Shown here one piece after another: positions 1,529-6,018 of a DNA stretch of 64,000 bases; the stretch's first letter is position 1; each line of letters starts with the position of its first letter. The position numbers and the translations under genes were made by a program. The DNA is from Aggregicoccus sp. 17bor-14 (GTDB lineage: Bacteria > Myxococcota > Myxococcia > Myxococcales > Myxococcaceae). The notes under the pieces were generated by a model. It saw nothing but the letters and a program-made list of their open reading frames with translations, was not told where the DNA came from and ran no database searches. Location of the stretch: the NCBI RefSeq assembly GCF_009659535.1, contig NZ_VJZZ01000011.1, positions 1 to 64,000 on the forward strand, read 5' to 3'.

Positions 1529-1930
1529 TTGCCGCCGCGATTTCCATTGGCCGAGGTTCAGGCGCTCGCGCGCGAGGAACGGTTTCGTCTGAATCCGGGG
1601 CCCGCTTGCGTGAAGACCTTGGAGTCGTACCTCCACGGGGAGCTCGAGAACTACCGCCCGTTCGCACAGAGGGTCATCGCCACACTCTCGCTCGGGGACT
1701 TCTACCGCAGTGAGCAGTGGCCTCGCGGTCCAAAGGGAACCTGGGCAGATGAGTACGGCGTGCGCCTCCCGCCAGCACTTTGCGACGAGTTCGGAATCGG
1801 CCCCGCCGCCTGGTACGTGAAGGTCGTCGTGCAGCGGGGGCCGCGCGGTCAGGAGCTGTTCTTCATGTCACTGCACCCCCTCAACTTCGTCATGGTGCGC
1901 GATGCCGGCACCCTGCACCCCACTCCGTAG
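1529..1930 (+). CDS. MqsR-like toxin (mRNA interferase family)
   Basis: A probable mRNA-cleaving toxin of the MqsR family. The conserved core is visible as LSLGDFYRS (about residues 53-61), then W-A-D-E-Y and a beta strand WYVKVVVQ. It aligns with the E. coli MqsR core LSESDFYKS ... W-x-D-V-Y ... VYLKITV. At 133 aa it is longer than E. coli MqsR (98 aa), mostly at the N-terminus. The start is TTG at 1529 behind a GAGG site seven bases upstream; an alternative TTG lies at 1547. The gene is followed after 9 bases by the antitoxin, the toxin-first order usual for mqsRA. The family call rests on motif memory, not on a search. Confidence 0.75.
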   Translation: MPPRFPLAEVQALAREERFRLNPGPACVKTLESYLHGELENYRPFAQRVIATLSLGDFYRSEQWPRGPKGTWADEYGVRLPPALCDEFGIGPAAWYVKVVVQRGPRGQELFFMSLHPLNFVMVRDAGTLHPTP

Positions 1931-1939
1931 GAGGAGTCC

Positions 1940-2506
1940 ATGGACGAATTGACCTGTCTTGCTTGCGGTGAAGGCACCATTCGACCGATCAGCCGAGCGG
2001 GCCGTACGATGCGTTACCGGCAGCTGGAGCGACTCGAGTTGCCCGGCGATCTCGCACTCCCCACCTGTGATGCGTGTGGTGAGCTCTGGCTCGATGCCGA
2101 GGCCACGGAGGCCGCTCAACGTGCGCTCGCGGCGGAGTATGGGCGTCAGCTGTCGCTTCGGGCGGAGCAGGCCGTGGAGACGCTGCGAAGCACGCTTCCG
2201 CAGCGCGACCTCGAGCGCCTCATCGGCGTGTCGGCGGGGCTGCTCTCCAAGATCAAGAACGGCAAGGAGACGTCGCCTACCCTGACGGCGCTCCTGCTCC
2301 TGCTGGCGTCACGTCCGGAGCGAGTGCGAGAGCTGGAGCGGCTGTGGAAGCGCCCTGCGAGAAGTGCACTCCGCGCGCTCGAGGCAGAACCGCTGCGAGT
2401 CGAATCTGCCCCTGTGTTGTTCGGCGCTGCGCCACAGCCGGAGCTCGCACAGAGTGAGCCCATTTCGACGACCTCGACGCTGAATTGGGAGGCGCTCGCT
2501 GCATGA
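1940..2506 (+). CDS. MqsA/YgiT-like zinc-finger antitoxin with C-terminal extension
   Basis: A probable antitoxin and autorepressor for the preceding toxin. The N-terminus has two CxxC pairs (Cys6/Cys9 and Cys43/Cys46), the zinc-binding arrangement of MqsA/YgiT proteins. The middle (about residues 85-110) contains a helix-turn-helix with the core IGVSAGLLSKIKNGK. The protein has 188 aa, longer than E. coli MqsA (131 aa). About 45 C-terminal residues after the helix-turn-helix are low in predicted structure and end TSTLNWEALAA. In toxin-antitoxin-chaperone systems such a tail is the chaperone-addiction segment that makes the antitoxin depend on SecB. The stop codon overlaps the start of the SecB-like gene (ATGA), indicating translational coupling. 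Confidence 0.8.
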   Translation: MDELTCLACGEGTIRPISRAGRTMRYRQLERLELPGDLALPTCDACGELWLDAEATEAAQRALAAEYGRQLSLRAEQAVETLRSTLPQRDLERLIGVSAGLLSKIKNGKETSPTLTALLLLLASRPERVRELERLWKRPARSALRALEAEPLRVESAPVLFGAAPQPELAQSEPISTTSTLNWEALAA

Positions 2507-2982
2507 GCGCCCTGTCTCCAGAAGTGCAGAAGCAGGTCATCGCTCTCGCTCGCAACGTGAGCCTCCGCGACGTTCGGGTGGTGTCGTTTCGTGCGGAGCG
2601 GGTGGGAGTGCCTGCGCCTGGGCCCGAGGCGGCCGCACTTTCCGTGGACAGCCAGGTGGCGCACGCACCGCTGCCTCCGCATGGGTTCGTGATCGAGATG
2701 CGCTTCCGCGTCGAGGCGCGCGCTCGGGAGGCCGCCGGCGAGCCCTTTGCCCTTTTCGAATACCGGGTGGGAGCGATCTACGGCCTGAATGGAGAGCTGC
2801 CCACGGCCGCGGTGCTAGATGCGTTCGGGCGGACGAACGGGATGGTGCACCTGTGGCCCTATCTTCGCGCCTACATCCAGCAGGCCAGCGCTCAGCTCTC
2901 GCTCCCCGCGCTCGTGCTGCCTCCGTACCGCGTCGTCGAGTCGGGAGCCAGTGCTGCGCCGAGTGGCCGCGTAGCAGAGTAG
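2503..2982 (+). CDS. SecB-like chaperone of a toxin-antitoxin-chaperone module
   Basis: A probable SecB-fold chaperone that would protect and fold the unstable antitoxin. The 159-aa protein has the SecB order of elements: a long strand (VIEMRFRVEARAR), a second strand pair (FALFEYRVGAIYGL), a helix (LWPYLRAYIQQASAQL) and the closing strand LPALVLPPYRV, comparable with the Pro-Pro-rich end of SecB. The start ATG overlaps the antitoxin stop by 4 bases, so all three genes form one operon. Position and coupling argue for an antitoxin-dedicated chaperone rather than the housekeeping SecB. Identity is by pattern only; a profile search would settle it. Confidence 0.75.
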   Translation: MSALSPEVQKQVIALARNVSLRDVRVVSFRAERVGVPAPGPEAAALSVDSQVAHAPLPPHGFVIEMRFRVEARAREAAGEPFALFEYRVGAIYGLNGELPTAAVLDAFGRTNGMVHLWPYLRAYIQQASAQLSLPALVLPPYRVVESGASAAPSGRVAE

Positions 2983-3074: not shown

Positions 3075-3302
3075 ATGTTCAAGAAGCTGTCCGCCTTCGG
3101 TAACAGCCTCAAGCTCATCATCGGGCGTCGGCTCTTCCCGTTGCTCGACAACGCCAAGGATACGCCTTTCGAGGTCAGGACCCCCGGCGAGGTATTGATC
3201 GTCCGCCCCATGAGGACGGCAGCACAAGTCGACTCCGTGCTCGGCGCAGCGGACGCACTGATGACCGCGCACGAGGAGACCTTCCGGAAGCTCGCCAGGT
3301 GA
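3075..3302 (+). CDS. AbrB/MazE/SpoVT-type DNA-binding protein
   Basis: A 75-aa protein of the swapped-hairpin AbrB fold. It opens with KKLSAFGNSLKLII, the typical first strand and turn of this family, followed by TPFEVRTPGEVLIVRP, the second hairpin. Such proteins serve as antitoxins (MazE, VapB) or as transition-state regulators. No toxin of the PIN or MazF type follows, so it is either an orphan antitoxin or a regulator of its neighbours. It lies 92 bases after the SecB-like gene and ahead of the TOTE primase-helicase on the same strand. Confidence 0.8.
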   Translation: MFKKLSAFGNSLKLIIGRRLFPLLDNAKDTPFEVRTPGEVLIVRPMRTAAQVDSVLGAADALMTAHEETFRKLAR

Positions 3303-3447
3303 CCGGCTACGTGCCAGGCCGGCGGCAGCTCGAGCATTGTGGTGGCGGAGCGGGAATGCGCACCCGCGGGCTCCTTCACACCGTTTGTCCGGGGGTGTCG
3401 CGGTCGAGTTGGATGAGCCCATCGAAGGCTCGGTGGAGCTGTCGATC

Positions 3448-6018
3448 GTGAGTCAGCGCGATCCCTCGAAGGCGGTCGGCTCTGGCCGGTCGCCAGGCGA
3501 TCCGAACGAGCAAACCGAGCTCGCCGAGCTGATTGCGAGTGGCGAGGCAGAGCTCCGTCGACTGGAGTTTGCGCAGGCTGAAGCAAGGGCGCGCCTCACC
3601 TTGCTCCGGGCCAGGCTCGAGGAGGGGGGTGGGGGCACTCAGGCGACCGTCGCACCGGTGGCCACCGCGCCTGCTGCGCGCGTCCCTCGAACTGCGGCTG
3701 AGAAAGTGCGGCTCTTCCGTCAGCTCTTTCGCGGCCGGCTGGATGTCTATCCCACGCGCTTCGTCAGCAAGAGGACGGGGAAGCCCGGCTATGCGCCTGC
3801 CTGCGCGAACAAGTTCGTTCCCGGCGTCTGCCAGTTGCCGGCGGTCACGTGCAGCGCGTGCACGAAGCAAGCGTTTCGTCCGGTGGATGACGCAGCGGTG
3901 CTCGCGCACCTCACGGGCCAGCACGTCATGGGCGTCTACCCGATGCTCAGCGATGAGACCTGCTGGTTGCTCGCGGCAGACTTCGACAAAGGGAGCTGGC
4001 AGGAGGATGCGCGCGCCTTCGTGGAGACGGCGCGCCGCCACAGGCTCCCGGCGCTCGTCGAGCGCTCGCGTTCAGGGAAGGGGGCCCACGTCTGGTTCTT
4101 CTTCTCGTCTCCCGTCGCAGCATCCGCGGCACGGAAGCTGGGTTGCTACCTCATTACCGAGACCATGGCGCACCGCCACGAGCTCAGCATGGAGTCCTAC
4201 GACCGGCTCTTCCCCAGTCAGGACACGATGCCGCGCGGCGGGTTCGGCAACCTGATCGCACTTCCGTTGCAGCATGGGCCTCGACAGGAGGGCAACTCGG
4301 TCTTCTTGGATGAGGATTTCGTCGCCGTCCCGGACGACCAGCAGTGGGCCGTCCTTGCATCCGTGGAACGCATCGATCCGGCCACGGTGGAGCGCATCGC
4401 CTCCGAAGCCACCCAGGCCGGAAGTATCGTCGGCCTGCCCGCACTGGAGGGAGGGGACGAGGAATCCGCGGCGCCGTGGACCCGCGTGCCCTCAGGAAAA
4501 CCTCGCCCCGCGCACCCTCTGGGGCCGCTGCCCGAGCGCATCGAGGCCGTCCTCGCACAGAGGCTGTACGTGCCGAAGGCCGGCCTTCCTGCCTCGCTCC
4601 TGAATCAGGTGAAGCGGGTCGCGGCCTTCCAGAATCCCGAGTTCTACAAGAGGCAGGCGATGCGCCTCTCCACGGCGAGGGTCCCCCGGGTGATCAGCTG
4701 CGCGGAGGACCTGCCGCTGCATGTGGCGCTGCCTCGTGGCTGCCGGCCTGAGCTCGAAGCGCTGCTGGCGGGACACGGGATTGCCCTGCAGGTGGAGGAC
4801 CAACGCACGCCGGGCACTTCGCTCGCCCTGCGCTTCCACGGAGCGCTCAGCTCCGTCCAGGCGGAAGCGGCCCGGGCACTGCTGGCCCACGACGATGGCG
4901 TGTTCGTCGCTCCGCCCGGCGTGGGCAAGACCGTGCTCGGGGCCCACCTGGTGGCGGCGCGCGCTCGCAGCACCTTGGTCCTGGTCCACCGCAGACCCCT
5001 GTTGGACCAGTGGCGCGCGCAGTTGTCGCGCTTCCTCGGCGTCGAGCGCGAGGGGATCGGGCACCTTGGTGGTGGCCGGGATGCGCTCACCGGAAGGATC
5101 GACGTGGCGATGGTCCAGAGTCTCGTTCGCCAAGGTTCGGTCGATGATCGGGTCTCGAGCTATGGCCATGTGATCGTCGACGAGTGCCATCACTTGCCAG
5201 CGGTGTCGTTCGAGCGCGTTCTCGCTGAGGTCAGGGCACGCTACGTCCTGGGTCTCACGGCAACACCCCAGCGGCGCGATGGCCACCACCCCATCACTCA
5301 GATGCAACTCGGGCCAGTGCGCTCGATGGTCGACGCCAGGGCGCAGTCGGCAACGCGCGCCTTCGAGCACCGTCTCATCGTGCGGGAGACTTCGTTCCAG
5401 TTGGAAAGTCCCGCGCACCGGGCTGACATTCAAGCCCTCTACGCGGCTCTCGCCAAGCACGAGCAGCGCAACGCGATGATCCTGGAGGATGTACTGCGAG
5501 CGCTCGGACACCGCCGCTCTCCGATCCTTCTGACAGAGCGCAAGGAGCAGCTGGAGTACTTCGCCACCCGCCTACGTCGGCGCGCTCGCCACCTCGTGGT
5601 GCTCCAAGGCGGCATGGGCGCCAAGGAGCTTCGCGCGATCCATGCCCAGCTCGAAGCCATCCCTCCAGACGAGGAGCGACTGGTGCTGGCGACCGGGCGG
5701 TATGTGGGGGAGGGGTTCGACGATGCGCGGCTCGATACCCTGTTCCTCGCCATGCCGGTGTCCTGGAAGGGCACGTTGATTCAGTACGCGGGACGCCTCC
5801 ACCGGGTGCACCCGGGCAAGCGAGAGGTGCAGATCTTCGACTACGTCGACCGCGAGGTGCCGGTGCTGCGGCGCATGTTCGAGAAGCGCCTGCGCGGCTA
5901 CCGCGCGATGGGCTACTCCTCGAGCAGGGTGCCGCCGGAGCGAGGCGCAGCAACGGCTGACGACGACGAGGATGCCTACCCTCTGCTCGATGATGGCCTG
6001 GATCTCGAGGACCCGTGA
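3448..6018 (+). CDS. TOTE-type primase-helicase fusion
   Basis: A large protein joining an archaeo-eukaryotic-type primase domain to a superfamily 2 helicase, the architecture of TOTE conflict-system proteins thought to act on foreign nucleic acid. Residues 1-60 look like a coiled coil. The primase part (about 85-330) has Cys residues that could bind zinc, the metal-binding D178-F-D180, His214 in GAHVW and Asp259. The helicase has Walker A GVGKT (about 491-495), DECH (578-581), LTATP and QYAGRLHR (about 780). The frame is open upstream to TTG 3337; I chose GTG 3448 (856 aa) because GGTGGAG lies nine bases before it. TTG 3385 is an alternative. No separate nuclease gene is adjacent. Confidence 0.8.
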   Translation: MSQRDPSKAVGSGRSPGDPNEQTELAELIASGEAELRRLEFAQAEARARLTLLRARLEEGGGGTQATVAPVATAPAARVPRTAAEKVRLFRQLFRGRLDVYPTRFVSKRTGKPGYAPACANKFVPGVCQLPAVTCSACTKQAFRPVDDAAVLAHLTGQHVMGVYPMLSDETCWLLAADFDKGSWQEDARAFVETARRHRLPALVERSRSGKGAHVWFFFSSPVAASAARKLGCYLITETMAHRHELSMESYDRLFPSQDTMPRGGFGNLIALPLQHGPRQEGNSVFLDEDFVAVPDDQQWAVLASVERIDPATVERIASEATQAGSIVGLPALEGGDEESAAPWTRVPSGKPRPAHPLGPLPERIEAVLAQRLYVPKAGLPASLLNQVKRVAAFQNPEFYKRQAMRLSTARVPRVISCAEDLPLHVALPRGCRPELEALLAGHGIALQVEDQRTPGTSLALRFHGALSSVQAEAARALLAHDDGVFVAPPGVGKTVLGAHLVAARARSTLVLVHRRPLLDQWRAQLSRFLGVEREGIGHLGGGRDALTGRIDVAMVQSLVRQGSVDDRVSSYGHVIVDECHHLPAVSFERVLAEVRARYVLGLTATPQRRDGHHPITQMQLGPVRSMVDARAQSATRAFEHRLIVRETSFQLESPAHRADIQALYAALAKHEQRNAMILEDVLRALGHRRSPILLTERKEQLEYFATRLRRRARHLVVLQGGMGAKELRAIHAQLEAIPPDEERLVLATGRYVGEGFDDARLDTLFLAMPVSWKGTLIQYAGRLHRVHPGKREVQIFDYVDREVPVLRRMFEKRLRGYRAMGYSSSRVPPERGAATADDDEDAYPLLDDGLDLEDP

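Follow-up and report, generated by a model that had tools for sequence, protein, structure and literature searches.

A probable MqsRAC-type toxin-antitoxin-chaperone operon with a divergent toxin in the myxobacterium Aggregicoccus sp. 17bor-14

Type II toxin-antitoxin-chaperone (TAC) systems are established bacterial switches for self-regulation and for defence against viruses; several have been described, and they differ in the toxin and antitoxin families that are combined with a SecB-like chaperone. In the HigBA1-Rv1957 system of Mycobacterium tuberculosis, the chaperone Rv1957 accompanies a HigB toxin and a HigA antitoxin, and the last residues of HigA1, Val-Ala, lie inside the ChAD and act as a ClpX degron (Texier 2021, reviewed in PMC8165232). 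CmdTAC, also known as PD-T4-9, pairs its chaperone with an ADP-ribosyltransferase toxin, CmdT, and with an antitoxin, CmdA, that ends in LAA and is degraded by ClpP once the chaperone has been captured by the T4 capsid protein (PMC11618068). Two further systems are built on MqsRA-family pairs. In Escherichia coli C496_10 MqsRAC, the toxicity of MqsR is rescued only by MqsA and MqsC together, and the operon protects against T2 (Vassallo 2022, PMC9519451), whilst in the TAC of Vibrio cholerae RC385, whose antitoxin carries a C-terminal extension, dependence on the chaperone has been tested (Bordes 2016, PMC5105189). The operon considered here lies at positions 1529-2982 of a window comprising the first 64,000 nucleotides of contig 11 (NZ_VJZZ01000011.1) of the 6.9-Mb genome of Aggregicoccus sp. 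17bor-14, and is very probably a TAC system of this MqsRAC kind. The initial annotation named the kind of module correctly, but in describing TACs as known mainly for HigBA in Mycobacterium, with MqsRA-type examples rare, it understated the MqsRA-type systems already tested (PMC5105189, PMC9519451).

The operon consists of three head-to-tail genes on the plus strand, near the start of the contig, and all three reading frames are intact; their coordinates are exactly those first assigned. The first gene (1529-1930) encodes a protein of 133 amino acids from a TTG codon that stands directly 3' of an in-frame TGA, with GAGGGG 5 bases upstream. Searched as a single sequence, the protein has no match in Pfam, NCBIfam, PADLOC or PHROGs, and thus does not reach the cut-off of PF15723, the MqsR family model. 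A family of 17 sequences was gathered from 195 genomes of the phylum; its profile finds E. coli MqsR (3HI2) as the best match in the Protein Data Bank (E=0.0016), and four of the 17 members match PF15723 themselves (best 5.1e-5). Plain Foldseek searching with the AlphaFold2 model (pLDDT 81, pTM 0.78) gave no match at E<=0.001, returning mostly NTF2-like folds, with MqsR absent from the top 50 matches listed, and it was a second structural comparison, by VIA, that resolved the fold. The model superimposes on 3HI2 with a Z score of 12.3 (against 5.2 for the next match) and a root-mean-square deviation of 1.8 Å over 89 of 91 residues. The proposed MqsR-like toxin, of the BECR/RelE fold, is hence recovered by family profile and fold rather than by single-sequence searching.

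The second gene (1940-2506) starts with ATG, is preceded by a Shine-Dalgarno sequence, GGAGGAG, that overlaps the toxin stop, and encodes an MqsA-like antitoxin of 188 amino acids. The protein matches TIGR03830 (E=3e-10), PF15731 (E=5.2e-5) and HTH_3 (E=6.3e-5), and both CxxC pairs of the N-terminal zinc-finger-like part are present together with the C-terminal helix-turn-helix (HTH), which is the domain plan of MqsA and agrees with the zinc-finger antitoxin that had been predicted. The two-gene MqsRA of E. coli (3HI2) shares this plan and the toxin fold, but has neither a chaperone nor a long antitoxin tail.

The third gene (2503-2982), of 159 codons, begins with an ATG that overlaps the antitoxin stop as ATGA (2503-2506), which is the overlap noted at first. 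Its product is a borderline match to PF02556 (SecB) as a single sequence (E=0.029), although the SecB assignment on which the original proposal hung becomes clear with a family profile and a fold. The family profile finds Rv1957 as its top match in the Protein Data Bank (E=5.8e-16), and the AlphaFold2 model (pLDDT 87.6) matches 5MTW by Foldseek (E=1.7e-10), the entry in which Rv1957 was solved with a ChAD peptide. Superposition on 5MTW gives a Z score of 16.6 and a root-mean-square deviation of 2.0 over 132 residues, compared with a Z score of 13.3 for E. coli SecB. The C-terminal helix of the SecB-like protein contains the motif TNGMVHLWPYLRAYIQ (codons 2833-2880), and seven residues, T111, N112, H116, W118, P119, Y120 and R122, are invariant among the seven closest relatives. 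The single sequence is also matched by the PADLOC model of the CmdTAC chaperone, PD-T4-9_C (E=1.3e-4). Membership of CmdTAC is nonetheless rejected, as the chaperone alone matches PD-T4-9 and the toxin has the fold of MqsR and not of CmdT.

The same order of toxin, antitoxin and chaperone is found at five other myxobacterial loci (G069, G070, G083, G134 and G149), with proteins about 25-50% identical to those of the window. Recurrence of one order in five genomes at so low an identity indicates that the gene set goes beyond chance. In a further genome, G139, the three genes are split over two contigs, the toxin-antitoxin pair lying at the end of one and the chaperone gene at an end of the other. 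A scan of the genome collection with the chaperone alignment gave four loci, all of them myxobacterial, and the named chaperone-carrying relatives are metagenome-assembled genomes of Archangium and Myxococcus. No match was found in the viral contigs scanned, and in the plasmids scanned the toxin had no match and the chaperone matched in Thermus only. One such plasmid protein, WP_014677587.1 of Thermus thermophilus HB8 pVV8 (L096, 1709-2692), is a chaperone that carries its own DNA-binding domain, its SecB-like domain (IVHLWPYLRLYVDFLTAQMGLPRLVLP) being fused to an HTH at the N-terminus, and the gene before it encodes a HigA-like HTH protein ending in WASWAA. SecB-like genes of the same family also follow HigB/HigA-like pairs in other myxobacteria (L009 on contig 250 of G157, and L013 in G193), forming HigBA-type TACs.

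The toxin-antitoxin pair also has relatives without a SecB gene, and it is the comparison with these that links the antitoxin tail to the chaperone. In the window the tail comprises the 52 residues after the last conserved tryptophan (residues 137-188, codons 2348-2503) and ends in TSTLNWEALAA. SecB-linked antitoxins have tails of 41-74 amino acids against 3-50 in unlinked ones (Mann-Whitney p about 8e-4), with 11-19 large hydrophobic residues per tail against 0-9 (Mann-Whitney p about 6e-4), G139 being counted as SecB-linked by a contig-end argument and both values treating related sequences as independent. The unlinked tails are short or hydrophilic. The antitoxin extension is thus longer and more hydrophobic where a chaperone is encoded than in chaperone-free relatives. 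When SecB linkage is mapped onto the antitoxin tree, six changes are needed (four to six in bootstrap trees), of which well supported branches force only two. The contrast is clearest, with 100/100 support, between L003, which has SecB and a 41-residue tail ending in VRVAA, and its sister L039, which has no SecB, a 10-residue tail and no toxin detected beside the antitoxin. Of the two relatives closest to the toxin, one, L016 (G138; 52% identity), lacks the chaperone and goes with an antitoxin whose tail is rich in Arg and Pro; it may be a former TAC from which the third gene has disappeared.

The very end of the tail follows the same division. Six of the seven SecB-linked antitoxins end in AA, the seventh ending in ATA, as against none of 11 unlinked ones (Fisher p 4e-4), although this comparison was chosen after the sequences had been seen. 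The transfer-messenger RNA of the genome itself encodes the tag ANDNVELALAA, and because the WEALAA of the antitoxin matches the LALAA at its end, the antitoxin terminates like an ssrA tag. The ALAA end (codons 2492-2503) is therefore a candidate ssrA-like degron of the ClpX type. In this it resembles the M. tuberculosis antitoxin, with its extension and hydrophobic ClpX degron, and CmdA with its LAA end, and differs from the RC385 antitoxin, which ends in ACYV as implied by the printed cloning primer (PMC5105189). A degron-like antitoxin end of this sort is already known, and what is new is its occurrence on another branch, with chaperone-free relatives as a contrast.

Just upstream of the toxin lies a palindrome, TTGGACTCAGTCCAT (1496-1510), which is a probable autoregulatory operator. 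Its 13-base core, TGGACTCAGTCCA (1497-1509), occurs once in the window, where 0.06 occurrences are expected with one mismatch allowed. At 16 of the 17 family loci the toxin is preceded by the palindrome TTGGACTnAGTCCAA or by a variant altered in each arm (TGAACTnAGTTCA, TGGAGTnnCTCCA), about 28-51 bases upstream of the toxin domain, compared with 0.02 in shuffles; the loci counted are those from which the pattern was derived, but the margin is large. Such conservation is consistent with an operon autoregulated through the antitoxin HTH. A simple scan at the operon gave no sigma-70 consensus promoter.

By analogy with the M. tuberculosis TAC, CmdTAC and E. coli MqsRAC, a mechanism can be outlined. 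The toxin would be an RNA-cleaving growth inhibitor, and the antitoxin would bind it and repress the operon at the upstream palindrome. With its hydrophobic extension and ALAA end, the antitoxin alone would form aggregates or be broken down by ClpXP, were it not for the co-translated SecB-like chaperone, which would bind the extension and keep the antitoxin active. If, for example, an abundant unfolded phage protein drew the chaperone off, the antitoxin would be lost and the toxin freed, which may lead to growth arrest or abortive infection.

Some observations weigh against this interpretation. The antitoxin matches to TIGR03830 and PF15731 and the chaperone match to PF02556 fall under the curated cut-offs when single sequences are used, and the toxin has no Pfam match alone. 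Moreover, the inner branches of the antitoxin tree are mostly weak and the tail statistics carry the dependence among relatives mentioned above. The active site of the toxin is a further concern. E. coli MqsR needs catalytic Lys56 and Tyr81 (PMC9636575). By a mapping made partly by eye, Y96 of the toxin corresponds to Tyr81 and is kept in 16 of the 17 relatives, but at the place of Lys56 the toxin has Arg60, and the rest of the family varies there among R, H, E, D, K and G. Only the tyrosine of the catalytic pair thus appears conserved and the RNase activity may be altered, so that the cleavage specificity of E. coli MqsR cannot be assumed. The loss of Lys56, together with the lack of a Pfam match, could be taken to mean that the operon has decayed or taken on another function, with a toxin devoid of RNase activity and a locus whose sole role is that of an autoregulated chaperone or DNA-binding unit. 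This is judged very improbable, as the three frames are intact and L53, D74, Y76, W95, K98, S114 and H116 are invariant across the 17 relatives, while the Tyr81 equivalent is kept in all but one. The invariant histidine appears to occupy the place of Lys96 of MqsR, an assignment that, like others in the C-terminal part, comes from the motif and from where the structural alignment begins and ends, and is a lead rather than a test. Taken from the sequences, conservation of this kind points to a working enzyme whose active site has been rearranged.

It is also conceivable that a working two-gene MqsRA-like pair merely stands beside a SecB paralogue for export or general folding that the antitoxin does not require. 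Several relatives of the pair do lack a SecB gene, and a PF02556 search of the genome at E<=0.001 found no canonical SecB elsewhere, so that the SecB-like gene could serve export. The same search, however, missed the copy in the window; it therefore establishes no absence and tells little about divergent copies elsewhere. A PF15723 search of the genome likewise gave no match and, being without a positive control, shows no absence either. The gene overlap and conserved order tie the chaperone to the pair, its closest structural match is a TAC chaperone and not an export SecB, and the antitoxin tails track the presence of SecB. An independent paralogue is hence very unlikely, if marginally less so than a decayed operon. 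The tripartite MqsRA-type TAC that was originally proposed is well supported by the profiles, predicted folds, conserved gene order and antitoxin tail. By its anatomy the operon is a new member of the MqsRAC kind: as described, the E. coli C496_10 system likewise combines an MqsR toxin, an MqsA antitoxin and a SecB-like chaperone, and that of RC385 an MqsRA-family pair, an antitoxin extension and a SecB-like chaperone. Its toxin, which diverges too far to be recognised by the MqsR Pfam model, and its myxobacterial host set it apart from E. coli MqsRAC.

Upstream of the operon lies a Fic-domain gene (205-1365; PADLOC SoFic E=3e-126), and downstream a small gene for what may be an addiction-module antidote (3075-3302; TIGR02609 E=0.05) is followed by a gene for a TOTE-type primase-helicase (3412-6018; AEP-TOTE E=1.6e-90). 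The guanine plus cytosine content is 65-68% in the first 6 kb of the window as against 69-75% further on. The first 6 kb or so around the operon looks like an acquired, defence-like stretch, although it begins at a contig end.

The place of the third gene can be taken by something else. At three loci (L021 in G049, L019 on contig 22 of G053 and L025 on contig 243 of G157) a DUF6941 gene (PF22091) directly follows the antitoxin where SecB would stand, and these three antitoxins form one branch (89/80) with a common tail that differs from the SecB-linked ones, being short, at about 30 amino acids, and containing a PR[LI] motif. Most DUF6941 matches in the phylum are not adjacent to toxin-antitoxin genes. 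On the minus strand of contig 28 of G053 (L073, 1384-2855), a DUF6941 gene comes after an unrelated small open reading frame whose product has an ssrA-like end, EGLALAA, and which is itself preceded by a possible toxin frame; this may be a different toxin-antitoxin-DUF6941 operon. It is possible, if rather doubtful, that in myxobacteria the MqsRA-like pair serves as a chassis for interchangeable third genes, SecB or DUF6941. DUF6941 would then be a second, unrelated kind of partner that guards the antitoxin or senses phage, and this toxin subfamily would be an MqsR variant that has Tyr and His in its active site.

With this operon, the range of MqsRAC modules, hitherto tested elsewhere, reaches a family of myxobacteria that annotation from single sequences misses. 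The family offers natural contrasts with and without the chaperone, in which a hydrophobic, mostly AA-ending tail is present with SecB and absent without it across several switches. Chaperone addiction through a tail and a degron thereby becomes testable outside Mycobacterium and E. coli.
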